Positions 1 through 13,977 of a stretch of DNA of 35,355 nt are shown one piece after another. The stretch is from an uncultured Opitutia bacterium (GTDB taxonomy: Bacteria; Verrucomicrobiota; Verrucomicrobiia; Opitutales; Opitutaceae): the NCBI GenBank assembly GCA_903919985.1, contig CAIXKG010000093.1, forward strand, positions 1-35,355, given 5' to 3'. Below the pieces are notes generated by a model, which was not told the DNA's origin, did no database searches, and saw only the letters and a list, made by a program, of their open reading frames with translations. The stretch's first letter is position 1; the number at the start of each line of letters is the position of its first letter. The position numbers were made by a program, and so were the translations under genes.

Positions 1-321
1 CTGGTTGCTCAACATTTCCGAGGCCTGATCGCACCAGGTCGATGCACCACCCGTTGCGTTTATCGTCTCCGCTCCTCTCCGTTCTCACGTAGACTCTTTT
101 TACTCCGGCCGACGGCCGTGGAGCGGACATCGATAAAAGATTTCAGCGTAGCGGAAGCCGTGAGGCTTTCGTCCGTATCCTCCAAAACGCTCACGCCTAC
201 TAGGACTCGGAAATTCGGCTACGCAGCCTTCTTGGTGCCGACTAACAGCAGCCGCCAATCGACCCAATGCGGACGACCTTGCGCCGTGCCGCAGCCTTTC
301 ACCCGCCGCGCTTTTCACCTC
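1..321. other. gene-free left edge with REP-like repeat
   Basis: No gene is supported here. The reading frame of the HlyD-type gene stays open upstream to a GTG at 118, but the extra 68 codons have no adaptor-like character. They also run through a REP-like repeat (148-171), so I treat this stretch as the untranslated leader of the secretion cassette. The left edge may cut off upstream regulatory sequence. Confidence 0.5.
148..171 (+). repeat. REP-like element, single copy
   Basis: The 24 bases starting GTAGCGGAAGCCGTGAGGCT match, in inverted orientation, the right arm of the paired element at 16991-17017 (AGCGGAGACCGTGAGGCTTT). They also resemble the left arm there and the minus-strand copy at 5461-5490. 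This fits a dispersed REP family. Confidence 0.5.
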
Positions 322-1602
322 ATGACGAACTATCTTCCCGCTACGCTCGCGCCGCATACCGTCGAAAGCCTGCATGCGATCCACGGGAAATCGCAGGCGT
401 GGATTTACCAACTCGCGTTGGCGGGTACGGCCTGCGCGCTGGGTGCGCTGCCGTTAATCACCGTCGACGTCACCATCCGCGCGGCCGGAATCGTTCGCCC
501 AATGACCGAGCGCGCGGAAATCCGCGTCCCGATCAACGCCCAAATCGAACAGGTGCTCGCGCACGACAACGATCACGTCGCCGCCGGTCAGCGCCTCCTG
601 ATCTTGCGCAGTCGCGATCTGGAGGAGCGAAGGCTGCTCAATCGATCCCGCGTCGAAAACAAAACCGCATTGATCGCCGATTTGCGGGAACTCAGTGCGG
701 CAAAAGCCGCGGCCCTGTACTCGGCTGATGAGGAGTCCGACCACATGGTTTCGGCCGGGAACGATTTCGCGGACGCTGCCTCACCAAAGTCCAAGTCTTC
801 GCCGACTGCCCGGGAACGGATCGAACTGTTCTCGCAGTCACTCGCTCTCCGCACCGCGGAACTTCGGGCTGATGCGAACGCGGTCCGATCGCAGGCCGCT
901 TATCGTGGTGGCGCGGTCGCGCGGTCCGAGCGGGAATTCGCGCGAGCTGAGGCACTGGCCCTAAAAGGTCTGCTGGCTGAGCGCGACCTCGACCAGGCCC
1001 GCGATGATCTCGTCGCCGCAAATTTTGAGCGATCAAGTCTAATGGAAGCGGCCACGGCCCGATGGTGTGCCCGACTACAAGACGAGGAATCGAATCTCGA
1101 TGCGCTTCGAACTGAAGCCGCGCGATTGGAAGAGGAACATGTCCAGACTACGATCAACGCTCCCCTCACTGGGGCGGTGCAAGGTCTCAGCGGTCTTTCT
1201 CCTGGAACCTGGCTGTCGGCCGGGCAGACCGTCGCGGTCATTTCACCTGACGACCGGCTGATCGTGGAAACATTGGTCTCGCCGCATGATGTCGGCTTGG
1301 TCCGCAGCGGGCAAAGCGTCCGACTCCAGGTCGACGCGTTTCCCTACACTCAATGGGGTTTTATCGAGGGTGAAGTGACCGCCATCGCCGCCGATTCGCA
1401 GGCGGGCTCGGCGAACAATTCAGGAAATTTTAAAGTCACCATCATCCCGAGTGCCACGCAGCTCAGTCTGCCCACCGGCCCGGTCGGCCATCTCCGCAAA
1501 GGCATGACGCTGACGGCCCGCTTCGTCGTCGCACGTCGCAGCCTGCTCCAAATTTTGTACGAGGACGTGAGCGCCTGGCTCAACCCGCAAGCGCAGGCGT
1601 GA
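322..1602 (+). CDS. HlyD-family periplasmic adaptor (membrane fusion protein) of a peptide exporter
   Basis: This 426-residue protein is a type I secretion adaptor that would link the inner-membrane ABC transporter at 2924-5113 to an outer-membrane channel. From the ATG at 322 it has a short cytoplasmic N-terminus, one membrane segment at about residues 31-48, and a first lipoyl/barrel half (IRVPINAQIEQVLAHDNDHV, with GQRLL). A long alanine/glutamate-rich alpha-helical hairpin follows at about residues 110-260, then a second barrel half (TTINAPLTGAVQGL) and a C-terminal beta domain ending near the KGMTLTARF stretch. This is the normal HlyD/EmrA layout and length. The frame is open from a GTG at 118, but that extension crosses a REP-like repeat, so 322 is preferred. 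The double-glycine peptide gene follows 69 bases later, which ties the adaptor to its export. No TolC-like partner is present in the window. Confidence 0.85.
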   Translation: MTNYLPATLAPHTVESLHAIHGKSQAWIYQLALAGTACALGALPLITVDVTIRAAGIVRPMTERAEIRVPINAQIEQVLAHDNDHVAAGQRLLILRSRDLEERRLLNRSRVENKTALIADLRELSAAKAAALYSADEESDHMVSAGNDFADAASPKSKSSPTARERIELFSQSLALRTAELRADANAVRSQAAYRGGAVARSEREFARAEALALKGLLAERDLDQARDDLVAANFERSSLMEAATARWCARLQDEESNLDALRTEAARLEEEHVQTTINAPLTGAVQGLSGLSPGTWLSAGQTVAVISPDDRLIVETLVSPHDVGLVRSGQSVRLQVDAFPYTQWGFIEGEVTAIAADSQAGSANNSGNFKVTIIPSATQLSLPTGPVGHLRKGMTLTARFVVARRSLLQILYEDVSAWLNPQAQA

Positions 1603-1620
1603 TCGGACCCTCACGCGCCT

Positions 1621-1645
1621 TTTCTCCGGCATGTCGCTGGAGAAA
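1621..1645 (+). promoter_or_regulatory. hairpin between adaptor and peptide genes
   Basis: TTTCTCC (1621-1627) pairs with GGAGAAA (1639-1645) around an 11-base loop. It has no T-run, so it is not a classical terminator. It lies in the leader of the peptide gene and could stabilise or attenuate its mRNA. The peptide ATG at 1672 has no close Shine-Dalgarno; the only purine-rich stretch is the right arm of this hairpin, 26 bases upstream. Confidence 0.35.
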
Positions 1646-1671
1646 TATCAACAAACCAAAACTAGATTGTT

Positions 1672-1905
1672 ATGAAAAACACACACCCATCCATGATGTG
1701 GGGCGACGAACTCGCCCCGCACGAAATGCAAGCAACCAACGGCGGCGACTTCTTTGAAGTCCTCATCGGCGTCTCTCTGGTCGATTTCTTCTACAACCTC
1801 TGGCGTGAGGACGGAGATGTCGCTGCGGCCGCTATGGACACGCGAGAGGACCTAACGGCCCTCTGGAACGCAATCAAATCGCTTACTGGAACGTTTGCTG
1901 CTTGA
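1672..1905 (+). CDS. double-glycine leader peptide (bacteriocin-like or signal peptide precursor)
   Basis: This encodes a 77-residue precursor. The leader ends in Gly24-Gly25 and matches the class II bacteriocin/C39 leader rule: Leu at -12 (residue 14), Glu at -8 (18), Met at -7 (19) and GG at -2/-1. C39 peptidases recognise exactly these positions and cut after GG. The predicted core is residues 26-77 (52 residues). It starts DFFEVLIG, has a hydrophobic aromatic first half and a second helix-prone stretch, and contains no Cys. By count it has nine acidic and three basic residues, so lanthionine or disulfide formation is excluded and it is unlike cationic pore-forming bacteriocins. Its neighbours are an HlyD adaptor upstream and a C39-peptidase ABC transporter downstream. 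The role (toxin, signal or matrix peptide) cannot be told from sequence. Confidence 0.75.
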   Translation: MKNTHPSMMWGDELAPHEMQATNGGDFFEVLIGVSLVDFFYNLWREDGDVAAAAMDTREDLTALWNAIKSLTGTFAA

Positions 1906-1911
1906 TTCAGC

Positions 1912-1941
1912 ACTCCTGCCTCCAACCCAGGCAGGAGTTTT
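1912..1941 (+). terminator. strong hairpin: terminator or RBS-sequestering element
   Basis: ACTCCTGCC (1912-1920) and GGCAGGAGT (1930-1938) form a perfect 9-bp stem with a 9-base loop, followed by TTTT (1938-1941) and then CCCC. It lies 6 bases after the peptide stop codon and looks like an intrinsic terminator with a short U-tract. The right arm also contains AGGAG (1933-1937), which sits 8 bases before the ATG at 1946 and is the obvious Shine-Dalgarno of the next gene. It may therefore limit read-through, hide the ribosome site, or both. Confidence 0.65.
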
Positions 1942-1945
1942 CCCC

Positions 1946-2773
1946 ATGAAATATCTTTTTTGTTTAGTTTTGATCTTTGCATCGGTGAGCCTCGCGGCAA
2001 CGGAGCCCGCTGAACAAATGGAGTCGGTCGCGGTGCAAAGTAAAACCCTGAAGGGGTACGGGTTTTATCGGTTGTATTCCGAATACCTGGACTTTGATAA
2101 ATCGATCGCCCCAAAGACGTTTCAGTTCGTCGGCTTCTCACCGCAAAAAAAAGTCACGAGCCAGTCGAATCTGCCGTTGAAGAAATTTGTCGTGTCCCCG
2201 CTGGGAAAGAAGACGGAGCTCACGAGTCCGAACGGGATCTATTCCGTCGAAGAAAAATATCGGGATTACCGGGTTACCAGCAACCAGCCGTTTCTGTCGG
2301 ATATGGACTATTTTATTTACCGATTCACGCCACCCACGACGCCGTCCGGTCTGCTGAGCAAGGGATCGCTCGACGAAATGCTGCGGGAGTTTAACGCTTT
2401 CCTGAAAGCGCGGTATAAATTCATCGACCGCGCCGCGTACGCCCCGCCTTTCATGTACCAGTTAAAACAAGCGCGGACCTCGACCGCCGATATCTGCGTG
2501 ATCTGCTCGGATGATGAGAGCTACCTTGCTGCGCTAAATTATCACCAACTTGGCACGATTGCCGACCATGCATTGATTTTTTCCGCGAAGGCGCTTTCGC
2601 AGTTGCCGCCTGATTGGGGCGTCGATCCCCAACGCATCAGTCATACTTTCCCGTGGCGTAAAGGCGTCGACTTGCCGCGTAGGTCGGCGGAGGGCGTGTG
2701 GTTCCGGTGTTCGGTCCTTCGTCGGTTGTGGCAAGCCCCCGACGGCTGGTGTGTGGCGCGGATGAGCCCGTAA
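1946..2773 (+). CDS. secreted protein of unknown function in the peptide-export cassette
   Basis: I do not recognise this 275-residue protein. The start at 1946 gives a clean signal peptide (MKYLFCLVLIFASVSLA, likely cut after Ala) and has AGGAG 8 bases upstream. The open frame back to 1895 overlaps the peptide gene and the hairpin and is not preferred. The body is mixed alpha/beta with several aromatic stretches and a Cys pair in ICVICSDD around residue 185. The last 35 or so residues (from about WRKGVD) are rich in Arg, Trp and Cys and look like read-through of structured non-coding DNA, so the original C-terminus may have been replaced. It lies between the peptide gene and its transporter, so a role as accessory, maturation or immunity protein is possible. 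That is inference from position only. Confidence 0.6.
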   Translation: MKYLFCLVLIFASVSLAATEPAEQMESVAVQSKTLKGYGFYRLYSEYLDFDKSIAPKTFQFVGFSPQKKVTSQSNLPLKKFVVSPLGKKTELTSPNGIYSVEEKYRDYRVTSNQPFLSDMDYFIYRFTPPTTPSGLLSKGSLDEMLREFNAFLKARYKFIDRAAYAPPFMYQLKQARTSTADICVICSDDESYLAALNYHQLGTIADHALIFSAKALSQLPPDWGVDPQRISHTFPWRKGVDLPRRSAEGVWFRCSVLRRLWQAPDGWCVARMSP

Positions 2774-2794
2774 AAGCGGATCGTCCGAGGGTCG

Positions 2795-2877
2795 GGCGGG
2801 TTATCCTTTACCCGCCGGTCAGGCACCGCTCCTTGCGTCAGCCGGCTCGCAACGGCGCGTTAGGTATAACGTGCCCT
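2795..2877. other. structured leader upstream of the peptidase-transporter
   Basis: Three nested or adjacent inverted repeats fill this gap: GGCGGGT/ACCCGCC (2795-2816, 8-base loop), TTGCG/CGCAA around the palindrome AGCCGGCT, and GGCAC/GTGCC enclosing the latter. The right end reads GTTAGGT, like the 3' core of an integron attC site, but no 5' partner (RYYYAAC) was found within 100 bases. The first hairpin could end transcription of the upstream gene, although it lacks a T-run. Confidence 0.3.
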
Positions 2878-2923
2878 GCTTTTTCGATCTGCTCCGATCC
2901 CCAAACCCAAACCGGAAAATCAC

Positions 2924-5113
2924 ATGTCTCGTTTCAAACAACGTGATGTCACCGACTGCGGCGCCTGCTGCCTGGGCTACGTCGCCGCTCACTACGGAAA
3001 GCCGGTGCCGATCGCCAAGCTGCGCCAGCTGGCGGGCACCAACATGCAAGGTTCTACCGCGCTCGGTTTGACGGCAGCTGCGGTTCATTTCGGCCTGATC
3101 GCCAAAGGGGTGAAGGGTGCCGCGACCGCTTTGCCGCATGCTCCTTGCCCTGCCATCGCGCACTGCCTGATCGACAATAAACGCATGCACTACGTGGTGC
3201 TCGTTGCTTGGACGCCGAAGTGCGCGCGAGTGATGGACCCGGCGGTCGGTCGGGTGGAGAAATGGTCGCACGAAAAATTTAAATCCTATTGGACTGGCGT
3301 GCTCATTATCCTCGCTCCCGGCGATCATTTCCAACCCGGCGACGCCACAGTTTCCCCGGTGCGACGCCTTTGGCAGTTGCTACAACCGCATCATGCCGTC
3401 CTCGCCCAAACTTTGGTGGGCGCCATCCTGTCGACCATCCTGGCTCTGGCCATGTCGGTCTATGTGCAAAAAATTGTGGACTCGGTCATACCCGATGGAA
3501 ACCACTCGCTGCTCAATTTGCTCGGTGTGGCGATGGGCGTGGTGCTGGCGTTCAGGCTGGTGCTCGGGGTTTTCCAAGCACTGTTATCGCTTCGCACGGC
3601 CCAGCGCATCGATGCGGCGATTATCCTCGGCTACTACCGCCACCTCCTTCGGCTGCCGCAGCCATTTTTCGATACGATGCGCGTCGGTGAAATCACGTCG
3701 CGGGTCGGCGACGCGGTTAAGATCCGCAATTTCCTGAACAACGCCCTCGTCAATCTGCTGCTCAATCCGCTCATCCTGATTTTCGCCATCGCGGCCATGT
3801 TTTTCTATTCATGGAAACTCGCGCTGCTTTCACTTGGCCTCCTGCCCGGGAACGCCCTGCTGTACTGGTTCGTCAATCTGCGCAACCGCACGTACCAGCG
3901 CCAGCTGATGGAGCGCAGCGCCGATTTTAGCGCACAGCTCACGGAGTCGCTTCAAGCTCAACCGGCGCTCCGGCGCTTTCGTCTCGAGGAGGCAGCCGAA
4001 CTGCGCACCGAGATCCGCCTCGTCCGATTGCTCAAGACCGCCTATCGCGCGGCCATCGCGTCGCTCGGATGCAGCACCACCGCCACCTTGCTCACTCAAG
4101 CCTATTTGATCGGTCTGTTGTGGCTCGGCGCCTCGCTCGTGCTCGAATCGCGCCTTACGCCGGGGCAATTGATGTCATGTTACACGCTGGCCGGATACTT
4201 GACCGGTCCGCTCGCTGCGTTGATCGGTCTCAATACTTCGATTCAGGAGGCGCTGATCGCCACGGACCGGCTCTTCGAAATCATGGACCTCGAACTCGAA
4301 AAGAATACCGGCACGATTGAGTTCACCCCGGCGCACGCGTGCGACCTGTGCTTTGAACAGGTTTCGTTTCATCACGCCGGCCGACTTGCGACTCTGCGCG
4401 ACATCAACCTCACCGTTCCCGTCGGACGAATCACCGTGCTCGCCGGTAATTCTGGCTGCGGTAAGAGCACGCTGCTCGCGCTTCTGCAACGACTCTATCT
4501 CCCCGAACAGGGCCGCGTGTGTCTTGGCGGAATCGATGTCCAGTATTTCACGCTCGATTCACTCCGTCGCCATCTCGCAGTTGTGCCCCAAGCGACGGTA
4601 CTGTTGTCGGGTACGATCCTCGAAAACCTCGCGCCGGGTGATCCGCAGCCGCAGATGGAACGCCTGCTCCGCCTGTGCCGGGACGTGGGAATTCTCGAGT
4701 TCGTCGAAACGCTGCCGCAAAAATTCTTAACTCATCTGGGCGAGAACGGCGTAAATCTTTCCGGCGGCCAACGTCAGCGCTTGGCTCTCGTCCGCGCCCT
4801 TTACGTCGACGCGCCGATTTTGCTGCTGGATGAACCGACGGCCGCTCTCGATCCGGCATCCGAAGCCACCATTCTTGCGCTGCTCCAAACGCTCCGGGAC
4901 GAAGGGAAAACCATCCTCATCGCGGCCCATCATCCCACGGTGCTGGCGATCGCCGATCAGATTGTGCGGATGGACGAGGGCCGGATCGTTGCGATCGAAC
5001 CCGGCGAGCGCTTCGCGGCAGACGATCCGCCTTCCCGCCATGGCACCAACTCGGGGGCCGCGGGCGGAATTAGTCCCGTGATGCTGCCGGGCATAAATGT
5101 TTCTGCAGCCTGA
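2924..5113 (+). CDS. peptidase-containing ABC transporter (C39 peptidase, exporter membrane domain, ATPase)
   Basis: This 729-residue transporter both cuts and exports double-glycine peptides. The N-terminal C39 domain (about 1-135) has the signature Gln6, Asp8 and Asp11-Cys12-Gly13, with catalytic Cys12, His89 (MHYVVL) and Asp105 (VMDPA). A six-helix exporter membrane domain spans about 150-445. The nucleotide-binding domain has Walker A GNSGCGKS (508-515), signature LSGGQRQRL (612-620), Walker B ILLLDE (632-637) and a switch His at 669/670. All catalytic residues are present and the length is normal for the family, so it looks functional. The ATG at 2924 places the peptidase Cys at the usual distance from the N-terminus. 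It pairs with the HlyD adaptor (322-1602), and the peptide at 1672-1905 is its likely substrate. Confidence 0.93.
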   Translation: MSRFKQRDVTDCGACCLGYVAAHYGKPVPIAKLRQLAGTNMQGSTALGLTAAAVHFGLIAKGVKGAATALPHAPCPAIAHCLIDNKRMHYVVLVAWTPKCARVMDPAVGRVEKWSHEKFKSYWTGVLIILAPGDHFQPGDATVSPVRRLWQLLQPHHAVLAQTLVGAILSTILALAMSVYVQKIVDSVIPDGNHSLLNLLGVAMGVVLAFRLVLGVFQALLSLRTAQRIDAAIILGYYRHLLRLPQPFFDTMRVGEITSRVGDAVKIRNFLNNALVNLLLNPLILIFAIAAMFFYSWKLALLSLGLLPGNALLYWFVNLRNRTYQRQLMERSADFSAQLTESLQAQPALRRFRLEEAAELRTEIRLVRLLKTAYRAAIASLGCSTTATLLTQAYLIGLLWLGASLVLESRLTPGQLMSCYTLAGYLTGPLAALIGLNTSIQEALIATDRLFEIMDLELEKNTGTIEFTPAHACDLCFEQVSFHHAGRLATLRDINLTVPVGRITVLAGNSGCGKSTLLALLQRLYLPEQGRVCLGGIDVQYFTLDSLRRHLAVVPQATVLLSGTILENLAPGDPQPQMERLLRLCRDVGILEFVETLPQKFLTHLGENGVNLSGGQRQRLALVRALYVDAPILLLDEPTAALDPASEATILALLQTLRDEGKTILIAAHHPTVLAIADQIVRMDEGRIVAIEPGERFAADDPPSRHGTNSGAAGGISPVMLPGINVSAA

Positions 5114-5130
5114 GCCCACACGGTCGCTGA

Positions 5131-5298
5131 AATGCAGCGTATTTGGGTGGCCGCATTTCGGCCGTACAGGGCAAAGATGTGGTGCCGGGCTACCGCGACG
5201 GGTGCCTCGTGAGCCTCGGCACGGTCGGCGAGTTGAAAAAATATCACGTCGTGATGCGTGAGGAGTTCGCGGCGCGGACGAACGGGTGGGGAGCTTAA
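5131..5298 (+). pseudogene. coding remnant, C-terminal fragment of an unidentified protein
   Basis: An open stretch of 55 codons begins right after an in-frame TGA (5128-5130), has no plausible ATG start near its beginning, and ends at TAA (5296-5298). The translation runs from NAAYLGGRIS through VVPGYRDGCLVSLGTV to a terminal RTNGWGA. It looks like the folded C-terminal tail of a real protein rather than random sequence. I cannot name the family. It may be the surviving end of a gene displaced when the secretion cassette was inserted. Confidence 0.4.
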
Positions 5299-5316
5299 GC
5301 CGGCACAATAGAGTTA

Positions 5317-5385
5317 AAATCAAGGTGGGTCAGCTCGCTTGAGTGTGCCCGAGCGTCCGCAAGCGGACGGGCCTTCGCGGTCACC
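5317..5385 (+). repeat. 69-base dispersed repeat, copy 1
   Basis: This aligns without gaps to 16136-16204 at roughly three quarters identity. Both copies share AAATC, AGGT, GGTCAG, TCGCT and the block AGCGGACGGGCCT. The inner part GTCCGCAAGCGGAC is a near-perfect small hairpin. It lies in non-coding DNA between convergent genes. Confidence 0.55.
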
Positions 5386-5460
5386 GACCAAGTTTAGCAG
5401 CAGGCGAAGGCATTTCGATTTCACCTTAGCTTACGCGCCGAAACGTTTAGGCGTTTAGCA

Positions 5461-5490
5461 CTAGACGCTCGCGCGTTCCGCTACCAACCG
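5461..5490 (-). repeat. REP-like element overlapping the helicase stop
   Basis: Read on the minus strand this is GGTTGGTAGCGGAACGCGCG followed by AGCGTCTAG. It matches the left arm of the paired REP at 16959-16984 (GGTAGCGGAACGCGTGAGCG). It covers the last codons and stop of the helicase gene. Confidence 0.5.
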
Positions 5491-7484
5491 TAGCTCCGCT
5501 TGATCTTCAGCGGCTGGTAGAGATCGGCCGGAATTTCCTGCAGAAAACGACTGGGGGTCATGAGCATCGCGGGGCCGCCTTTCGTGTTCACCTTGGGCCA
5601 GCAGAGGTACAGCTCGTCGCGCGCACGCGTGACCGCGACGTAGAACAGCCGCCGCTCTTCCTCGACATCACCGGCCTCGATCGAGCGGCGCAGGGGAAAC
5701 ATGCCGTCGGCGAGGCCGATTAAAAATACCGCGGCGTATTCGAGTCCCTTTGCTTGGTGCACCGTTGTGAGACGGAGCGCGTCGGCGTCGGGATCGGCGG
5801 AGCGATTGCTGGTTTCGCCGTTGAGCAGCATGATCTGCGCGAGCATGTCCTGCATGTCCTCGAACCGGGTCGCGAAACCGATGAGCGATTTCAAATCATC
5901 GAGGCGGGAAACGTAGTTGGCGAAAGCACCTTTGAGGTAGTCGCCGTACCAACCGTCGATCGCCGTCTCGATCGCGTTCGAAGGTTTCATCGTGCGCATC
6001 ACCTCGGCCACCTGCTGGAGCGATGTGACGAGCTTGGGCCACTCCTCCTTTGCGTCCTTGGGTACGCGCGAACGTACGTCGTCGGAATCGAGCACATCGA
6101 CGAAGTTCTTCTGGAGTAACTTCGCGTGGTCGAGCGCGGCCGCGTAGATTTTTTGCGCGCCCTTGTCGCCGACTTTCGGGAGCAGTACGACGAGTCGGTT
6201 CCAGGCGAGCGTGTCGGAGGGATTGTAGACGAAGCGCAACAACGCGATCAGGTCGCGCACGTGGGCTTGTTCAAAAAAGCGGACGCCGCTCGTGATCTGG
6301 TAGGGAATCTGGAGACGCGAAAGCTCAAGCTGGATGTCGAGCGCCTGAAAATGTGCGCGGTAGAGGATCGCGATGTCGGACAAGGCGCAGCCTTCGTCGG
6401 TGAGACCGCGGATGCGTTGCACGATGAACTGCGCCTGCTCGCGGCTGTCCATCGACTGGACGACATACGGTTTCTCGGAGTTGGCGCGATGCGGGCGCAG
6501 CTCCTTGTCGAAGTGACGGCCCTTCGGTTGCGCGAGCAGCACGGCGTTGGCCAGGGCGAGAATTTGCGGAGTCGAGCGGTAGTTCGTCTCGATGTAATGC
6601 ATCACCGTACCGGGATGCCGGTCGGGAAAAGTCAGGATGTTTTCGAAATTGGCGCCGCGCCACGAGTAGATGCACTGCGCGTCATCGCCGACCGCCATGA
6701 CTTGGTGGTGCGCGCCGATGGCGTCGACGATCTGGGACTGCAGCGTGTTGGTGTCCTGATATTCGTCGACCAGCACGTGGCGAAACCGGTGCGAGAAATA
6801 GGCGGCGGTTTCGGGCGATTTTTTCAGGAGCTCGAGCCAGAACTCGAGGAGATCGTCGTAGTCGAGGACGTTCGCCTGGCGTTTCGCCTCGGCGTATTTT
6901 TTGGCGAAGAGCGGGAGACGCTCGATCAGCGTGTCGTATTGCGGGAAGAAGCGCGTGACGGTTTCGCTGAGGGAAAGCTGAGTATTGCGCGCCATCGAGA
7001 TCACGGAGTGCAACGGGCCGGGACGTGGATGCGTTTTATCTTTGAAGAAAGCCTTGTCCGCGGATTCGACCGCGTCGCGCAGGAGACTTTCCGATTCATC
7101 GGCGTCGAGAATGGTGAACGTGCGCGGCAGGCCGATGGTTTCGCCGTGCATGCGCAACGTGCGGTGGCCGATGCTGTGAAAGGTGCCGCCCCAGAAGCGT
7201 CCGGGTTCGACGCCAGTCAGATCCTGCACGCGGTGGAGCATTTCCTTCGCGGCCTTGTTGGTGAACGTGAGCAGGAGGATTTCGCCCGGTCTGACTCCTT
7301 GGGAGAGCAGGTAGGCGACGCGGTAGGTGAGCGTGCGGGTTTTGCCTGAGCCAGCGCCGGCCAGGACGAGCAGCGGTCCGGGGGGCGCGGTGACGGCTGC
7401 AAATTGCTCGTCGTTGAGTTCCTTGCGGAAATCGATCGGCGGCACGCCGTGCGGAGCGGAGGTTGGGTCGAGGGCAAAATCCAT
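5481..7484 (-). CDS. uvrD: UvrD/PcrA/Rep-type superfamily 1A DNA helicase
   Basis: This 667-residue ATP-dependent 3'-5' helicase of repair or replication restart has all SF1A motifs in order. They are the Q-motif (LNDEQ), Walker A AGAGSGKT (42-49), motif Ia (TFTNKAA), motif II VDEYQDTN, motif III GDDAQCIYSWRGA, motif IV (TNYRST), motif V TVHQAKGLEY and motif VI FYVAVTRAR. The ATG at 7484 is chosen because the open frame upstream (to 7604) is low-complexity and unlike the family. The protein ends soon after motif VI at KRSYGW and lacks the extended C-terminal tail (RNAP-binding Tudor-like in PcrA/UvrD). In length it is closer to Rep. The exact orthology among UvrD, PcrA and Rep is open. It is a single gene with no obvious operon partner. 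Confidence 0.93.
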   Translation of the reverse strand: MDFALDPTSAPHGVPPIDFRKELNDEQFAAVTAPPGPLLVLAGAGSGKTRTLTYRVAYLLSQGVRPGEILLLTFTNKAAKEMLHRVQDLTGVEPGRFWGGTFHSIGHRTLRMHGETIGLPRTFTILDADESESLLRDAVESADKAFFKDKTHPRPGPLHSVISMARNTQLSLSETVTRFFPQYDTLIERLPLFAKKYAEAKRQANVLDYDDLLEFWLELLKKSPETAAYFSHRFRHVLVDEYQDTNTLQSQIVDAIGAHHQVMAVGDDAQCIYSWRGANFENILTFPDRHPGTVMHYIETNYRSTPQILALANAVLLAQPKGRHFDKELRPHRANSEKPYVVQSMDSREQAQFIVQRIRGLTDEGCALSDIAILYRAHFQALDIQLELSRLQIPYQITSGVRFFEQAHVRDLIALLRFVYNPSDTLAWNRLVVLLPKVGDKGAQKIYAAALDHAKLLQKNFVDVLDSDDVRSRVPKDAKEEWPKLVTSLQQVAEVMRTMKPSNAIETAIDGWYGDYLKGAFANYVSRLDDLKSLIGFATRFEDMQDMLAQIMLLNGETSNRSADPDADALRLTTVHQAKGLEYAAVFLIGLADGMFPLRRSIEAGDVEEERRLFYVAVTRARDELYLCWPKVNTKGGPAMLMTPSRFLQEIPADLYQPLKIKRSYGW

Positions 7485-7819
7485 ACGTTGAACCAACACG
7501 CTCACGCAACCGGAGGAAGGCGCAAAGGCGAAATGCGTGAGCCTCGCGGACCATGGCCACGAGAGCTGGCGGCGCCGTTTGAAAAATGGCCGGGACGCCT
7601 TCACCGGGCGGTGCGAGCGCGCTCACGCTATGGTTGGGCGGGAAGAATCGGCGAAGCTGGGCAGCAGTGAGTTCATCTTCTGCGCGGACAAAGATCGCGG
7701 AGAGACGGTGACGTTCCAAGGACCGGTGCGGGCCCTCAAGCACGGGGCTGAAATTGACCGACGGGGCGGTGCGGCGTAGCGGCCGAACGGATGATAGAAC
7801 CGATCTGGCCGGTCGGGGC
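7485..7819. other. intergenic stretch without a supported gene
   Basis: Between the helicase start and the DUF1343 stop, both minus strand, reading frames exist on either strand (for example 7537-7779 plus) but have no recognisable motif, good start or family character. No strong hairpin or terminator was seen. The helicase promoter should lie here. Confidence 0.4.
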
Positions 7820-9223
7820 CTACTGATACAGCCAGTAGCGCCGGCTTTGCTGTTGATAGATTTTATTTTTCTCCCGCCAGTCCCGCAAATAGCCCTCGAG
7901 GTCGACCTTCGCACCATCGCGTTGCAGGGCCGCGAGAAAATCTTCCGACCCCATATGATGGAGAAACCCGCTCATGTCGCGTTTTGGCCCGGGCGCAAAC
8001 GGATTGGGATTCTTCGGGTCGATTTTGCAGGCCAGCCGCATCAGGTAAAAGTTCAGTTCGGTCGGCCGCCACTCGTCGTAGTCGGTGATCTCAATATAAA
8101 GGCCCGTGGCCGGTTTACCGTCTTTGTTGGGCGCGCTAATTTTTTGGAAACGCAGTCCGGGCAACTTCAGCGCATTCAGCTCCTTCTCGATGACTTCGAT
8201 GCGAATATTGATGTGGGAGATCCCGCGAAAGATGTAATTTTTCCCAACGCCATGGCGGAAGCCGGTGTCGATGCGCGGCGGATCCCAAAACGCGCCTAGC
8301 CCGACCATGGGATAACCTTGGACTGCCTCCCAAGTTTGAATGCCCGGCGAGGTGGGGACCCACGTGAGACCGGTCTCCGGCCAACGCATCGCGCGGCGCC
8401 ATCCGCGCATGGCAATGACCGTGAGTTTGCCGGCGGCGCGAATGGCATCCGTGACGTCCAAACCGCCAGGCGGACGTTCGTCTTTCGCCATGCGGGCCAG
8501 TTCGCCGATCGTGAGGCCGTGCACGTAAGGCACGCGAAAAGCGCCGACCGAGTTTTTGGTCGCCTGTCGTGCGTCGAGCAGGGGGCCGTCGGTTTTGAGC
8601 CCGCCCAGTGGATTGGGTCGGTCGAGAATGATGACTTCGATGTTGTTTTCGAAACATGCTTCGGTGGTCCACTTCATCGCGTTGACGTACGTGTAGCTCC
8701 GCGTGCCGATGTCCTGCAGGTCGATGACCATCGCATCGATGCCCTTCAGCATCGCCTTGGTCGGCTTCTTAAATTTTCCGTAGACAGAAAACGTCGGCAG
8801 GCCGGTGCGTTGATCGATCGAGTCTGGAACCAACGCGGCGGCCGGGGCGTCGCCGTTGATGCCGTGTTCCGGTCCATAAAGGGCGACGAGTTTCACTCCG
8901 GGCGCGCGCCGCAACACGTCGATCGTACGCTCCCCGCGTCGGTTGACGCCGGCCGGATTGGTCAGGAGTCCGAGGCGTTTTCCTTTCACCGCGGCGAAAC
9001 CATCGGCCTCGAGCACATCGATCCCCAGCATCACGCTGGGCAGCGCCGGCTGAGCTTGGAAAAGCGGGGCCGCGGTTTTGGCTTCAAACCCTGGCGCGGC
9101 GGGGGCCGGGTCGGTTTTCGGCAGCGGTACGGGTTGGCTCGCGCTGCAGCCGAGGAGCCCCAGCGCGAGGGTGACGAACGCGATCAGGGGCTTGAAGGGT
9201 GAGACGCGCGGGGTGCGGGCCAT
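7820..9223 (-). CDS. namZ: DUF1343 lipoprotein, NamZ-type exo-beta-N-acetylmuramidase
   Basis: This 467-residue protein has a lipoprotein signal (hydrophobic segment to LLGC, Cys26). Typical DUF1343 blocks follow: LLTNPAG, LYGPEHG, DLQDIGTRSYTY, LDRPNPLGG and the C-terminal GVGKNYIFRG region. Members of this family (NamZ of Bacillus, family GH171) remove terminal N-acetylmuramic acid from peptidoglycan fragments, so the likely role is cell-wall recycling at the outer envelope. The family call is firm; the exact activity is inferred. The length is somewhat above the usual 400 or so because of the signal and a Pro/Ala-rich linker. The glycerate kinase gene lies upstream on the same strand, separated by 56 bases that contain a perfect GC palindrome. 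Confidence 0.85.
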   Translation of the reverse strand: MARTPRVSPFKPLIAFVTLALGLLGCSASQPVPLPKTDPAPAAPGFEAKTAAPLFQAQPALPSVMLGIDVLEADGFAAVKGKRLGLLTNPAGVNRRGERTIDVLRRAPGVKLVALYGPEHGINGDAPAAALVPDSIDQRTGLPTFSVYGKFKKPTKAMLKGIDAMVIDLQDIGTRSYTYVNAMKWTTEACFENNIEVIILDRPNPLGGLKTDGPLLDARQATKNSVGAFRVPYVHGLTIGELARMAKDERPPGGLDVTDAIRAAGKLTVIAMRGWRRAMRWPETGLTWVPTSPGIQTWEAVQGYPMVGLGAFWDPPRIDTGFRHGVGKNYIFRGISHINIRIEVIEKELNALKLPGLRFQKISAPNKDGKPATGLYIEITDYDEWRPTELNFYLMRLACKIDPKNPNPFAPGPKRDMSGFLHHMGSEDFLAALQRDGAKVDLEGYLRDWREKNKIYQQQSRRYWLYQ

Positions 9224-9240
9224 GGGAAAATTTCACTGTG

Positions 9241-9258
9241 CGGGGCGCCGGCGCCCCG
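9241..9258. repeat. perfect 18-bp GC palindrome
   Basis: CGGGGCGCCGGCGCCCCG is its own reverse complement. It lies between the stop of the glycerate kinase gene and the start of the DUF1343 gene, both minus strand. It could be a terminator stem (no T-run) or an operator. Its function is not established. Confidence 0.4.
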
Positions 9259-9279
9259 TCGAGGAGGAATCGTGCAAAA

Positions 9280-10452
9280 TCAAAAAGCGGCGCGAACGGC
9301 GGCGGCGAGATTGGCGGGCGCGGCGCGCAAAGCGTCGGCCAGCTCCAAGTGCGGCGGACTGATGGCGTGCAAAGTTAGGTTTTTCTTTTCGTCGCTGGAG
9401 GACGAGAGGCCATGTCCGACCGACCCCGCGAAGACGTGCGTAGGTTTGCCGAGAGCGATCGCGCGGGCGGCGATCGCGCCGGGGCCTTTGCCGTTGAAGG
9501 AACTCGCGTCGAAACGGCCCTCGCCCGTGATCACGAGATCGGCGCGGGCGAGCCGCGCGTCGACATCCAGCCATGCGGAGACGAGATCAAATCCGGAGAG
9601 CAACCGCGCTCCCGCCGCCGCCATCAGTCCAAACGCGATCCCGCCGGCCGCTCCGGCCCCGGCCGTTTCCATAACTGATTCGGGCTGGCCACACCGGGCG
9701 CAGAGCAGCCGCGCGAGACGTCCGCTTTCGCCATCGAGCCGCGCCAGATCCTCCGGTTGCAGGCCTTTTTGCGGACCATACGTGGCGGCCGCTCCGCGCG
9801 GTCCGACGAGAGGATTCGTGACATCGCAGGCGATGCGGATCGGCGGAAACCCCGGGCTGATGCCGCCCTCCACGCGGGAAATGGCCGACCACCCGGCCGG
9901 AATTGGCGGCGAAATACTCCGCTGGTCCGTCGTCGGAAATTCGAACCCGAGCGCGTTGAGTGCGCCGAGACCGAGATCGTGCGTGGCGCTGCCGCCGACG
10001 CCGAGGAGAATGGCGGCAACGCCGCGCTGGGCGGCGAGCTGCATGAGCTCGCCGGTACCGAAACTCGTCGTGCGCCAGGGGTCGCGCCGCGCGGTCGGCA
10101 CAAGCGCAAGCCCGGAGGCGGCGGCCATTTCCACCACGGCGATGCAGTCGCCGGACGGTTGCTCGGGCAACGCGAGCAACGCGCGCGCGGCGGGCGCGAT
10201 CGCCGCCAGCGAAACGAAACCTATCCGGGCCTCGAGCGGTGCGCCCAAGGGCCCGGTCACGCGATGCGTTTCAAGCGTGCCGCCGGCCGCGTGGGTGAGA
10301 ATATCGCCGAAGCCTTCGCCCCCGTCGGTCAGCGGACAGATATCGAACGTCCAATCGGCGTGGCGCGCGCGCAACGCCTCCGCCGTGATCGTGCAGGCCT
10401 CGGGCGCGGTAAGGGAGTCCTTGAGTTTATCGAACGCGACGAGGATGTGCAT
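9280..10452 (-). CDS. glycerate kinase (type 1, GlxK/GarK family)
   Basis: This 390-residue enzyme phosphorylates D-glycerate with ATP, probably to 2-phosphoglycerate as in the GarK/GlxK family. Family marks are the N-terminal [18 protein letters not shown] near residue 66, [15 protein letters not shown] near 170, and the C-terminal [15 protein letters not shown] block. The length is normal. It starts at the ATG at 10452, 11 bases after the stop of a tiny membrane peptide gene (10464-10586), so the two may be cotranscribed. No glyoxylate-pathway or transporter partner gene is nearby. Confidence 0.92.
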
Positions 10453-10463
10453 CTTGGCGTTGG

Positions 10464-10586
10464 TTACTTTTTGCCGCCGAAAAGACCCTTGATCGCGCCG
10501 GCTCCGCCGGTCGCGCCGATGTTCACCGCGGCCGGTCGGGCGATAAACGCAGCAAGGACACCGAGGATGCCGAGTAAGATTTTCAT
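10464..10586 (-). CDS. small hydrophobic peptide, 40 residues
   Basis: Starting at the ATG at 10584-10586, this gives a 40-residue peptide with one hydrophobic segment ([18 protein letters not shown]), a glycine-rich stretch and a basic GGKK end. I do not recognise it. The frame is open further upstream to 10646, but that part is Arg/Pro-rich and unlikely. The ribosome site is weak. The short gap to the glycerate kinase gene and the sharp change from a sensible membrane segment to noise upstream are the only support. Confidence 0.45.
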
Positions 10587-10725
10587 AAAGAGGCGGAGTG
10601 GCGGGAAGCTAGGATCGTTTGAACCGCGGGCAAGGCTGGGTTTCAAATCGCTTCGCTCATTCCGATCGCGCGGGAATTTCGCTTGTCACGCGAGGCGCCG
10701 CTCCGACGCTGGGCGCACTTTACCC

Positions 10726-12567
10726 ATGGCGTCCAACTACACCGAAGCCAGCATCAAGACCCTCTCGTCGCTCGAACACATCCGGCTTCGCCCCGGCATG
10801 TACATCGGCCGTCTCGGCAACGGCACCCACGCGGAGGACGGCATCTATGTCCTCTTGAAAGAGACGATCGATAATTCCATCGACGAATTCATGATGGGGC
10901 AGGGGAAAAAAATCGAAATCGAGCTCACTGACCGCACCGTGCGGGTTCGCGACTATGGCCGCGGCATCCCGCTCGGCAAACTCATCGACTGCGTCTCAAT
11001 CATCAACACCGGCGCGAAATACGACAGCGAGACGTTTCAAAAAGCTGTCGGTCTTAACGGCGTTGGCCAGAAAGCCGTCAACGCGCTCGCTCTCGAATAT
11101 CGCGCGCAGGCCTTTCGCGATGGCGAGACGAAGCTCGTCGAGTTTGCGCAGGGCAAACTCAAGAAAGAGCACAAAGTTGCGAAGTCCGCTGAGCGCAACG
11201 GGACGACCATCGAGTTCACGCCCGACGGCGCGCTCTTCGGGGCCGATTTCAAGTTCCGGCCGGAGTTCATCGAGGACATGTTGTGGAACTACGCCTTCCT
11301 GAACCGCGGCCTCACGCTCACGTTCAACGGCAAGGCGTTCAAGTCCGAGCACGGACTCGAGGATCTGCTGCGGAAAAATCTCACTGGCGAAACGCTTTAT
11401 CCGATCATCCATCTCGAAGGCGAGGACATCGAGTTCGCGATGACGCACGGCGGGCACTATGGAGAGGAATATTTCTCGTTCGTAAATGGCCAGCACACCA
11501 CGATGGGCGGCACGCACCAGGCGGCGTTTCGCGAGGCGGTCGTCGAAACGGTGCGGAATTTTTTCAAGAAAGATTTCGAGGCGGCGGATGTCCGGCAATC
11601 CATCGTGGCGGCCATCGCCGTACGGGTGCAGGAGCCGGTGTTTGAGTCGCAGACAAAAACCAAACTCGGCTCCGCCGACATGGGCCCGGGTGGCCCGAGC
11701 GTGAAGGAGTTCATCGGAAAATTCGTGCAGCAGACGCTCGACGTTTACCTGCACAAGAATCCGGCGACGGCTGACGCGATTCTGAAAAAAATTCAGGCGA
11801 GCGAACATGAACGCAAGGAGCTCGCCGGCATCCGCAACATCGCCCGCGAACGCGCGAAGAAAGCCTCCCTGCACAACCGCAAGCTCCGCGACTGCCGCCT
11901 GCACCTCGGCGACCGCAACGAACGCGCCGAACAGTCCAGCCTCTTCATCGTCGAGGGCGACAGCGCGGCCGGTTCGCTCACCGCGTGCCGCGACGTGCAG
12001 ACCCAGGCCGTTTTCGCGTTGAAGGGCAAACCGCTCAACACCTACGGGCTCTCGAAGAAAGTCATCTACGAGAACGAGGAGTTTCATCTGCTCCAGTCGG
12101 CGCTTAACATCGAGGACGGCCTCGACGGTCTGCGCTACGGCAAGGTCGTCATCGCCACCGATGCCGACGTCGATGGCATGCACATCCGCCTGCTGCTGCT
12201 CTCATTTTTCCTCCAGTTTTTCCCCGACCTGATCGCCCGCGGGCATCTCAGCATTCTCGAGACGCCGCTCTTCCGCGTGCGGAATAAAAAAAAGACGATG
12301 TATTGCTACGACGAAAGCGAGAAGCAGGCCGCAGTCGCGGAGCTCGGCGCAACCCACGAGATCACGCGCTTCAAAGGCCTCGGCGAAATTTCCGCGAACG
12401 AATTCAAGGATTTCATCGGCGAAAAAATCCGGCTCGATCCGGTTTCGCTGCACCACCTGCATAACACGGACGAACTCCTCTCCTTTTACATGGGTAAGAA
12501 TACGCCGGAGCGGCAGGACTTTATCATTGGCAATCTGAGGGTCGAAAAAGATCTCGTCGAAGTCTGA
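10726..12567 (+). CDS. parE: DNA topoisomerase IV subunit B (ParE-type)
   Basis: This 613-residue ATPase subunit of a type IIA topoisomerase has a GHKL fold with catalytic Glu46 and Asn50 in [16 protein letters not shown] (76-80), and the ATP lid [12 protein letters not shown] from 109. The transducer domain has the switch-lysine loop QTKTKLG (309-315). TOPRIM shows EGDSAAG (410-416; GyrB/ParE usually have EGDSAGG) and DADVDG (479-484). The ATG at 10726 fits the start [20 protein letters not shown]; the much longer open frame to 9757 overlaps the glycerate kinase gene and is a shadow. The style matches the Bacteroidetes/Verrucomicrobia ParE branch more than GyrB. It is transcribed with the S41 protease (3-base gap) and the partner subunit parC. 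Confidence 0.92.
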
Positions 12568-12570
12568 GCG

Positions 12571-13923
12571 ATGCGCTCGGCGACGGTGCAACTTTGGCTG
12601 CTGCTCGCCGGTATCACCGGATTGACCGGCGGCTGCATCACCGGTCCGACGCTGAATCATCCGCCGGCCTTGATCGCGGTCAGCGAACGACCGGCGCACA
12701 ACCTCCGGGTTTTCGACCGCGTTGCCACGTTGGTCAAAAACCGTTTTTACGACGCCAAATTGCTCGGCGTGGACTGGAAGGCCGTCACCGCGGAATTCAG
12801 GCCGAAGGCGGAAAAGGCCGCCAACGACGTGGACCTGTATGAACAGGTGTTGAATCCGATGCTCGACCGCTTGAAGTCGTCGCATCTCCGCGCGATCTCG
12901 CCGCAGGACGCTTACGAGCACGGGACCGAGCATCGCGCGATGCTCGGTTTGCGCCATCAGCGCGTTGATGGAAAGTGGGTCGTGCGCGAAGTGATCCCGG
13001 ATAGCCCGGCGGCGGCTGCCGGCGTGCGCGCCGGCTGGATCGCACTGACGCTAAACGGCAAGACGCCGGATCAGGGCCCATTTCATTTTAGCGAAGGCCA
13101 GGAGGTGAAGGCGGAGTTTCTGGACGAGAACGATCAGCCGCGGAGTTTGATGTTAAACGCACGCTTGGTCTCCACCAAGCCGCGGCTCGAGGCGCGGGAA
13201 CTCGCGGGTGGAATCTGGTACCTTCGGTTCGACGAGTTCAACGTGGCGTCGCGCCGCTGGCTAAGCGCGCAGTTGAAAGCCCACGCCAGTGCGCCCGGCG
13301 TCGTGATCGATGTGCGCCTGAATCCCGGTGGCGGATGGTTCTCGCTGCGATTTGTGGTGAGCGAATTCGTCCCCGGCGATGTTCCGGTCGGTGCTTTCAT
13401 TTTTCGCGGGGGCCGGCCCAGCGAGGACGATTCGCTGACCTGGCTTTCCGCCCATTTCAGCGGCCGCGTGGCGGTTTTGATCGGACCGTTGAGCGCGAGT
13501 TCGAGTGAGATTTTTGCTCACGTGATGAAAGCCCACGGCCGGGCCACGCTGGTCGGGCAGAAGACGAGCGGCGCGGTGATCGGATCGCTCTTTTTCCCGT
13601 TGCCGGGTGAAGGCAAGCTGCAGATGGCGATGTTCGATTATCACGGGGTCGACGGTCGCAGACTTGAGGGCGAGGGCGTCGCGCCCAACGTGGAGGTATG
13701 GCCGAAGCTGGCGGACTTGCGCGCGGGCCGCGACCCCGAGCTCGAAGCTGCGCTGCTTGAGCTGAGGCCGGCGGTGCATCCGGTGGCACTAACGAGCGGT
13801 GGAATGCGGGCGCGTTTGGGCGAAGACCGGCAAAATCCTAATGGTTTCCCCTCCGCTGAAAGCACCAATGCGACACGGCCCTCCAGGGTCTGGCCGCTTG
13901 ACGTAGTCGGCGCCGCCCCCTGA
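12571..13923 (+). CDS. S41 (C-terminal processing) peptidase lipoprotein with PDZ domain
   Basis: This 450-residue protein has a lipoprotein-like signal (LTGGC, Cys22), a helical N-terminal region, a PDZ domain at about 125-200 (GLRHQRVDG, SPAAAAGVRAG) and an S41 catalytic core. The Ser/Lys dyad is visible in SASSSEIFA (Ser near 310) and GQKTSG (Lys331), and GG/NPGGG supplies the oxyanion area. It probably trims periplasmic proteins. It starts 3 bases after the parE stop and is followed 54 bases later by parC, so it sits inside a topoisomerase operon. The C-terminal 60 residues are low-complexity and differ in character. Tail-specific protease (Prc/CtpA) is the nearest known type, though this one lacks the long C-terminal domain of Prc. 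Confidence 0.85.
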   Translation: MRSATVQLWLLLAGITGLTGGCITGPTLNHPPALIAVSERPAHNLRVFDRVATLVKNRFYDAKLLGVDWKAVTAEFRPKAEKAANDVDLYEQVLNPMLDRLKSSHLRAISPQDAYEHGTEHRAMLGLRHQRVDGKWVVREVIPDSPAAAAGVRAGWIALTLNGKTPDQGPFHFSEGQEVKAEFLDENDQPRSLMLNARLVSTKPRLEARELAGGIWYLRFDEFNVASRRWLSAQLKAHASAPGVVIDVRLNPGGGWFSLRFVVSEFVPGDVPVGAFIFRGGRPSEDDSLTWLSAHFSGRVAVLIGPLSASSSEIFAHVMKAHGRATLVGQKTSGAVIGSLFFPLPGEGKLQMAMFDYHGVDGRRLEGEGVAPNVEVWPKLADLRAGRDPELEAALLELRPAVHPVALTSGGMRARLGEDRQNPNGFPSAESTNATRPSRVWPLDVVGAAP

Positions 13924-13977
13924 GAAATCTACCGCTAGCGCCGGTTACAGCCGCGATCGCCCCCAATTTTTCCACGC

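Follow-up and report, generated by a model that had tools for sequence, protein, structure and literature searches.

A CvaA/CvaB-like cassette predicted to export one acidic double-glycine peptide in an uncultured Opitutaceae bacterium

In peptidase-containing ATP-binding cassette (ABC) transporters (PCATs), a C39 domain binds the leader helix of a precursor peptide and cuts after its Gly-Gly pair, and a path from the ABC transporter through an HlyD-type protein to TolC carries the core out. Class II microcin export has been described as involving a precursor, an immunity protein, a PCAT, a fusion protein and TolC (PMC9746304), and class II bacteriocin precursors have been reported across the bacterial tree by a large study covering genomes of 56 phyla (PMC12648078). 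For the leader, L-12, E-8, L-7 and Gly-Gly are described for ComA, and positions -12, -7 and -4 for LahT150 (PMC6363468). Here we analyze a related cassette in an uncultured bacterium of the Opitutaceae (Verrucomicrobiota), located in a window of 35,355 bases that is a whole contig of a 2.6 Mb assembly (79% completeness, 5.45% contamination). Four co-directional genes on the + strand encode, in order, an HlyD adaptor, a double-glycine precursor, a secreted protein and a C39-ABC exporter. We propose, with a probability of roughly 80%, that this is a chromosomal CvaA/CvaB-like type I cassette that exports a single acidic peptide of 52 residues, for which we judge a signal or accessory role somewhat likelier than killing. 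The original prediction, made from the DNA alone, held that such systems are little described in Verrucomicrobiota. In line with this, our searches of open-access papers on double-glycine or bacteriocin systems in Verrucomicrobiota or Opitutaceae turned up no account of a cassette like this one: PMC8636102, which among these papers mentions Opitutaceae most often, has bacteriocin only as an entry in the cluster list of a metagenome co-assembly, PMC3482391 has polymorphic toxins as its subject, and PMC11494933 makes no mention of Verrucomicrobia.

The cassette and its precursor

The features that carry our reading are as follows.

322-1602, + strand: HlyD-family membrane fusion (adaptor) protein, 426 residues (ATG at 322, stop at 1602; PF13437, PF16576)
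1672-1905, + strand: precursor of 77 residues, with a 25-residue double-glycine leader and a 52-residue acidic core of charge -6 (leader motif, codon score, position)
1672-1746, + strand: leader MKNTHPSMMWGDELAPHEMQATNGG, with L-12, E-8, M-7, G-2 and G-1 (in-frame codon score 0.239)
1747-1902, + strand: predicted secreted core, 52 residues, beginning DFFEV (in-frame codon score 0.225)
2924-5113, + strand: C39-peptidase-containing ABC exporter (PCAT), 729 residues (PF03412, PF00664, PF00005)

In the exporter, the domains Peptidase_C39 (PF03412, 106.7 bits, cut-off 22), ABC_membrane (PF00664) and ABC_tran (PF00005) each score above cut-off. Residues C12, H89, D105 and Q6 are intact by direct reading and invariant in a five-sequence alignment, Walker A lies at 508 and LSGGQ at 612, and the frame is open across all 729 codons. 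The protein thus has the PCAT architecture of an N-terminal C39 domain with Cys, His and Asp, joined in one chain to the membrane and ATPase parts of an ABC transporter, and its best solved relatives in a phmmer search are PCAT1 (4ry2, 5.9e-122) and ComA (8hf7, 2.1e-109), with matches that span query residues 5/6-690. The adaptor (322-1602), the counterpart of the microcin membrane fusion protein, matches HlyD_3 (PF13437, 1.3e-16) and HlyD_D23 (PF16576, 3e-10), stays under the curated cut-off of TIGR01843 (135 bits against 208.65), and has blastp matches at 12 relatives' loci (38-46% identity in seven, 29-33% in five). The window exporter is the sole C39 match of its genome. Elsewhere this genome has eight OEP-domain matches, which may supply the TolC-like outer membrane factor of microcin systems.

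The precursor starts 70 nucleotides behind the adaptor gene, with in-frame ATGs at 1693 and 1696 as possible starts giving shorter leaders. Its codon score in frame is 0.229, compared with 0.234 for the exporter and -0.03 to -0.72 for its other five frames. Next to the exporter it has the leader expected of a PCAT substrate (L-12, E-8, L or M at -7, Gly-Gly), which fits the ComA rule with Met at -7 (PMC6363468). The open reading frames (ORFs), their coordinates, the catalytic Cys12/His89/Asp105, the near-perfect leader and the core starting DFFEV read as the original prediction had them. The precursor matches no Pfam or NCBIfam family at E up to 1, nor Pfam at E up to 10. It is not of the class IIb two-peptide type by these measures: no class II bacteriocin model matches it, and no second double-glycine peptide was found in the window cassette. 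A single-sequence model of the core, of low confidence (predicted local distance difference test score, pLDDT, 63.9), has two long helices and one short one. On these features, the C39 domain (Cys12-His89-Asp105) would cleave the 77-residue precursor behind Gly-Gly, and the ABC part, together with the HlyD adaptor and a TolC-like outer-membrane factor encoded elsewhere, would form a tripartite path that exports the 52-residue acidic peptide.

Exporter relatives and the recurrence of leader ORFs

Our family set comprised 252 genomes, the window's own included, of a family that we take to be Opitutaceae from its named relatives, and exporter orthologues (E <= 1e-140) occur in 27 of them, again including its own; we refer to individual loci by labels such as L037. 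Across a phylum spread of 387 genomes, all seven exporter matches at E <= 1e-120 (own included) are from Opitutaceae. Exporter records from outside the family set and the outside rows of the tree come from the 80 best among 333 confirmed stretches. Among these, the nearest named records are metagenome-assembled genomes assigned to Opitutae, Opitutia or Opitutaceae, one of them labelled Lacunisphaera, in keeping with a verrucomicrobial origin of the window; the others comprise Bacteroidota (44-49% identity) and a single record labelled Beijerinckiaceae (L120, 48%). An exporter tree made by a quick method places 26 of the 27 Opitutaceae rows in one clade (support 100) and the window in a 15-row subgroup (support 97); L154 falls outside the clade, and long branches are flagged in this tree. 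The L044 orthologue (oriented 8486-10183) lacks its C39 part, and neither an HlyD gene nor a double-glycine peptide was detected near it. Downstream of the exporters of genus g8 stands a large neighbor, identified in L048 as an ATP-grasp/Alpha-E protein; tested frames of L050 and L051 had no match.

Small ORFs with double-glycine leaders recur beside this exporter. We counted strict leader motifs in the 27 Opitutaceae loci on the exporter's strand, from -5.5 to +1.5 kb (169 kb), and found 28, against one on the opposite strand there and two in 316 kb (both strands) farther out. This count supersedes an earlier one (126 per 684 kb versus 3 and 4) that contains some genomes twice. A strict-rule leader ORF is present in 16 of the 27 loci, and by a looser rule a double-glycine precursor stands beside the exporter in 22; none was found in L044, L046, L152, L154 and L022, and in three of these (L044, L046 and L022) the exporter match is truncated or the contig ends nearby. 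From the control rate, about 0.008 strict leader ORFs would be expected by chance in the 1.3-kb gap between HlyD and exporter, and the precursor ORF is confirmed to be more than chance. Because double-glycine precursors adjoin the exporter in 22 of 27 loci, the pairing of leader and exporter is, as far as sequence can tell, real, though the cores vary. Between closely related loci, the peptides mostly have a nonsynonymous rate (dN) below the synonymous rate (dS), for example 0.043 versus 0.460 in L047/L048; in L040/L041, with few changes, the two rates are close (first peptide 0.084 versus 0.075, second 0.047 versus 0.050).

The original prediction had asked whether small leader ORFs recur beside the same transporter, and the 22 of 27 loci and the 28 strict-motif ORFs versus three in the controls show that they do. 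It would have been refuted by a lack of homologous precursors beside homologous transporters in relatives, and on this the outcome is mixed: the leaders recur, and we detected no homologue of the window core. A precursor search of 150 family genomes gave none better than E=0.0068; weak matches in four genomes, which we set aside, are located within long frames of 303-740 residues. Against Bacteroidota cores the window core reaches z 0.3, and we rejected kinship with the 'NNWDSFKAG' or 'FAPL' peptides, against which its local alignment scores are no better than shuffles.

Peptide classes, candidate immunity genes and neighbors

The relatives' loci contain two classes of peptide, which is the new observation here. 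The first peptide follows HlyD at 2-192 nucleotides in the 16 loci with a cleanly measured distance; the distance is 956 nucleotides in L147, no HlyD match was found in L045, L051 and L155, and in L151 the peptide gene comes after that of the exporter. Most first cores are acidic with little GxxxG, whereas most later cores are hydrophobic and GxxxG-rich (first, n = 16, versus later, n = 20: median GxxxG-like density 0.026 versus 0.147, p=2e-6; hydropathy, p=1e-4; charge, p=0.003). In this comparison the near-duplicates L041, L048 and L155 were removed, L045 and L151 (a single peptide and no detected adjoining HlyD) counted as later, L147 counted as first despite its distance, and the window was placed in neither group. 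The peptide list omits, as chance frames, five weak looser-rule matches (L037 8172, L038 6683, L041 9731, L048 11012 and L148 11163). The window peptide is in first position and resembles the first class in composition: its GxxxG-like density is 0.058, with values as low in 11 of 16 firsts and one of 20 later peptides, and a charge per residue as negative is found in five of 16 and one of 20, respectively. Seven loci of another genus (L047-L051, L153 and L155) likewise have a single first-position peptide only, 44-54 nucleotides from the exporter. We propose that in this lineage the first peptide after HlyD forms an acidic class separate from bacteriocin-like later peptides, and that the window cassette retains the first-position peptide only. 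Where relatives have the later-peptide module, the window has the secreted protein and then a dispersed repeat.

Later peptides resemble known bacteriocins. Two of the eight peptides tested pass the class IIb bacteriocin model TIGR03949 (cut-off 21.5), namely L038:8064 (22.9 bits) and L056:9213 (24.9 bits). Eight listed peptides, including two near-duplicate pairs, beat all 200 shuffles against a Bacteroidota core (94 cores), as in peptide 3 of L043, which scores z 9.7, the highest value, against Spirosoma L075, and peptide 2 of L042, at z 7.1 against Chitinophagaceae L089. In contrast, the first-position class has no convincing match among the Bacteroidota cores (best z 2.8, L039). Adjacent pairs of bacteriocin-like double-glycine peptides are seen at L148:8246-8653, L040:5276-5656, L041:6895-7275, L042:4875-5236, L043:7487-7867 and L038:8064-8422 (oriented), mostly an 'NNWDSFKAG' type followed by a 'FAYDxGRxIRF'-like type, and a small membrane ORF comes after the pair. 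These pairs are likely two-peptide bacteriocins, shared in part with Bacteroidota. Between the peptides of L037 (6150-8294) and L038 (3382-4482 and 6258-8012) are secreted-looking proteins of several hundred residues, two with weak, sub-cut-off TPR matches; by eye they are similar to each other and unlike the secreted protein of the window. The multi-peptide locus L038 also has a stand-alone C39 piece and an HlyD fragment (5371-5883 and 5766-5981), as if a duplicated cassette had decayed.

In ten of 14 relatives scanned, a membrane ORF distinct from the peptides either follows closely on a peptide or occupies the gap from the last peptide to the exporter, and we regard these ORFs as candidate immunity genes. 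They encode 38-47 residues in L148, L038, L040 and L041, 67-142 in L146, L037, L039 and L151, and 160-183 in L147 and L150; the scan listed only the peptide itself in L149 and none in L042, L043 and L045. One ORF that follows a peptide in L038 is CAAX-protease-like, just under the cut-off (PF02517, 22.3 bits versus 22.4); the membrane ORFs of L147 and L150, considered for the same family, have no Pfam match. By eye, the candidates L040:5729-5854, L148:8706-8849 and L038:8474-8590 (oriented) end in W-x-x-[IF]-K, like the end of their partner peptide, possibly by mimicry or common origin. In the window (1-330, 1600-2960 and 5100-5490), no ORF of 30-260 residues contains a 19-residue stretch of mean hydropathy >= 1.6, in a kind of scan that missed two small ORFs seen in L042 and L043. 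The cognate immunity protein that accompanies a microcin precursor thus has no detected counterpart in these parts of the window, and sequence upstream of the contig end is out of view. A NarL/LuxR-type response regulator lies directly upstream of HlyD in six of the 27 loci (L037, L038, L040, L041, L043 and L151; family checked for L038 and L041).

Two further features lie between the precursor and the exporter of the window.

1946-2773, + strand: protein of 275 residues that belongs to no known family and whose N-terminus looks signal-like by eye (ATG at 1946)
2783-2884, no strand assigned: copy of a dispersed palindromic repeat of about 100 bp, between the secreted protein and the exporter (genome matches, alignment)

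The secreted protein, which the original prediction had counted among the components, sits within the cassette and probably does not belong to its conserved parts. It matches no Pfam or NCBIfam family at E up to 1, and has one homologue (24% identity) in the 251 other family genomes. In the 12 kb around that homologue we found two bare motif matches, and neither an exporter nor an HlyD match. We do not count the protein as a part because of this single distant homologue, the lack of an exporter or HlyD match near it, and a 3' end (last 43 codons, 2642-2770) that scores as non-coding (-0.116). On the same grounds (no family, one distant homologue away from any exporter or HlyD) we rejected it as an immunity protein or modification enzyme; its AlphaFold model, from a two-row alignment, is of low confidence (pLDDT 41.5). 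The repeat has 25 further matches on both strands of its own genome (E <= 0.01), of which 14 copies were aligned, and its nested palindromes and inverted ends give it a look like repetitive extragenic palindromes or miniature inverted-repeat transposable elements.

The cassette lies 321 nucleotides from the contig end upstream of HlyD. Behind the exporter, on the opposite strand, is a large gene (5481-7604) whose product we take to be a UvrD-like helicase. Farther on (7820-9223 and 9757-16092) lie a NamZ-type exo-N-acetylmuramidase gene and the gyrase/topoisomerase IV B and A subunit genes flanking an S41 peptidase gene. In nine same-genus loci (L172-L178, L180 and L160), DNA similarity to the first 12 kb of the window is limited to the adjoining UvrD-like gene, which shows only that the neighborhoods differ. 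As to insertion, the contigs of L160 and L177 end soon past that gene, and an empty site is not definable because the left side of the window is a contig end.

Alternative readings and known systems

Several observations weigh against the proposal of an export cassette for an acidic first-class peptide. None of 12 other same-genus genomes has an exporter orthologue, and the cassette may accordingly be a recent or dispensable acquisition. The split into first and later peptides was noticed first and then tested on the same loci, with weak matches removed from the list. At 0.36, the hydropathy of the window peptide is at least that of 15 of 16 firsts and of six of 20 later peptides, between the two classes; its core is without proline, which most first peptides have; and compared with 41 relatives' peptides (first and later) its best z is 2.1, equalled by 13 of 300 shuffles. 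A regulator or immunity gene could also sit beyond the left contig end.

The 52-residue core could instead be a class II microcin or bacteriocin, with immunity encoded off the contig, at an unlinked site, or by the secreted protein (1946-2773). The machinery is the same as that of class II microcins (PMC9746304), class IIb-like peptides stand beside orthologous exporters in relatives, and the core is partly hydrophobic and predicted, with low confidence, to be helical. However, the window scan found no immunity-type membrane ORF beside the core, the core matches no bacteriocin family, 19 of the 20 later peptides are richer in GxxxG-like motifs and less negatively charged, and the secreted protein is not conserved, so that we consider this reading rather doubtful. 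A classical class II bacteriocin in particular is disfavored because no immunity ORF was found and because of the acidic, GxxxG-poor make-up; the single-peptide loci L047-L051, L153 and L155 likewise have little room for such an ORF between peptide and exporter. As the last step of the argument, we infer that a secreted signal or accessory role is somewhat more likely than a killing role. Inducing peptides are known to regulate class II bacteriocin loci in Gram-positive bacteria, and the first-position peptide might similarly be a pheromone that regulates the cassette, with the NarL/LuxR-type regulator upstream of HlyD as its output in some relatives. The regulator in six loci, the fixed place behind HlyD, the acidic composition and the seven loci with a first-position peptide alone are consistent with this. 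Against it, no sensor kinase was identified, the single further upstream neighbor tested (L041) being BrkB; the available stretch has no such regulator in 21 of 27 loci, including all seven with a single first peptide; the L151 regulator accompanies a later-class peptide; and none is visible in the window. We therefore treat the full pheromone scheme as tentative and less likely than not. A signal role as such is a fair guess, which gains from the six loci that have the regulator and loses from those that lack it.

The window copy might also be a decaying remnant that lost a bacteriocin and immunity module to an unrelated secreted gene and a repeat, leaving a peptide that no longer functions. 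The repeat itself, the non-coding-like 3' end of the secreted gene, the missing cassette in the 12 same-genus genomes and the fragments at another locus (the stand-alone C39 piece in L038) would fit such decay, but the exporter has an open frame throughout and intact versions of all catalytic and ABC motifs that we checked, and the precursor keeps a full leader and a strong codon signal, which makes decay improbable. That the precursor is a chance ORF, and that the exporter serves peptides encoded elsewhere, we regard as hardly credible: the missing homologue in 150 family genomes speaks for it, but the rarity of such ORFs expected in the gap, the codon score, and a position that matches that of the relatives' first precursors speak against it. 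Returning to the export cassette for an acidic peptide, we speculate, on a long view that we think unlikely to hold in full, that the acidic double-glycine peptides first after HlyD in Opitutaceae are an undescribed class of signals or other non-killing factors, which some relatives couple to a Bacteroidota-shared two-peptide bacteriocin and a NarL-type regulator, with the window as a minimal single-peptide version. Such loci would be the Gram-negative counterpart of class IIb loci under peptide-pheromone control. Should the first-position peptide prove to be a signal, bacteriocins would be under peptide pheromone control in a Gram-negative lineage; if the core kills, it would represent a new acidic microcin family. 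In either case the Opitutaceae loci provide a defined set of peptides and exporters, common in part to Bacteroidota, that is testable with purified C39 domain.

Among known systems, a few candidates can be set aside: the NHLP/Nif11 type (TIGR03796, 381.5 bits versus a cut-off of 853.3, and a 25-residue leader with no family match) and the lanthipeptide type (no modification enzyme match among the four cassette proteins). Class IIb two-peptide bacteriocins are alike in that two relatives' peptides pass TIGR03949 and several relatives have peptide pairs with a small membrane ORF, and unlike in that the window peptide is single and has no model match. The double-glycine peptide loci of Bacteroidota (Pedobacter, Mucilaginibacter, Spirosoma, Chitinophagaceae) have the nearest exporters outside Opitutaceae among the best 80 of 333 stretches, and their cores match the later-class peptides of Opitutaceae, unlike the first-position class and the window core. 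PCAT1 and ComA share a near full-length exporter match and the leader positions; to our knowledge, they are Gram-positive exporters with no HlyD adaptor in their structures. The colicin V system CvaA/CvaB/TolC differs in its immunity gene, for which none was found beside the window peptide, and in that the window has an acidic core without homologues and an Opitutaceae host; it is alike in its C39-ABC exporter with Cys, His and Asp, its HlyD-type protein and its short double-glycine leader, with TolC-like domains elsewhere in the window's genome. We do not file the cassette as a class II microcin system because immunity, a defining component, was looked for and not found. By sequence, the original reading as a double-glycine peptide export cassette is supported, and no account of one in Verrucomicrobiota turned up in the open-access papers searched. 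The claim of an undescribed system is weakened, since the machinery is the standard PCAT and fusion protein of microcin export and class II bacteriocin precursors are reported across the bacterial tree. That machinery is of a known kind, and by its sequence features the window cassette appears to handle export as class II microcin systems do.

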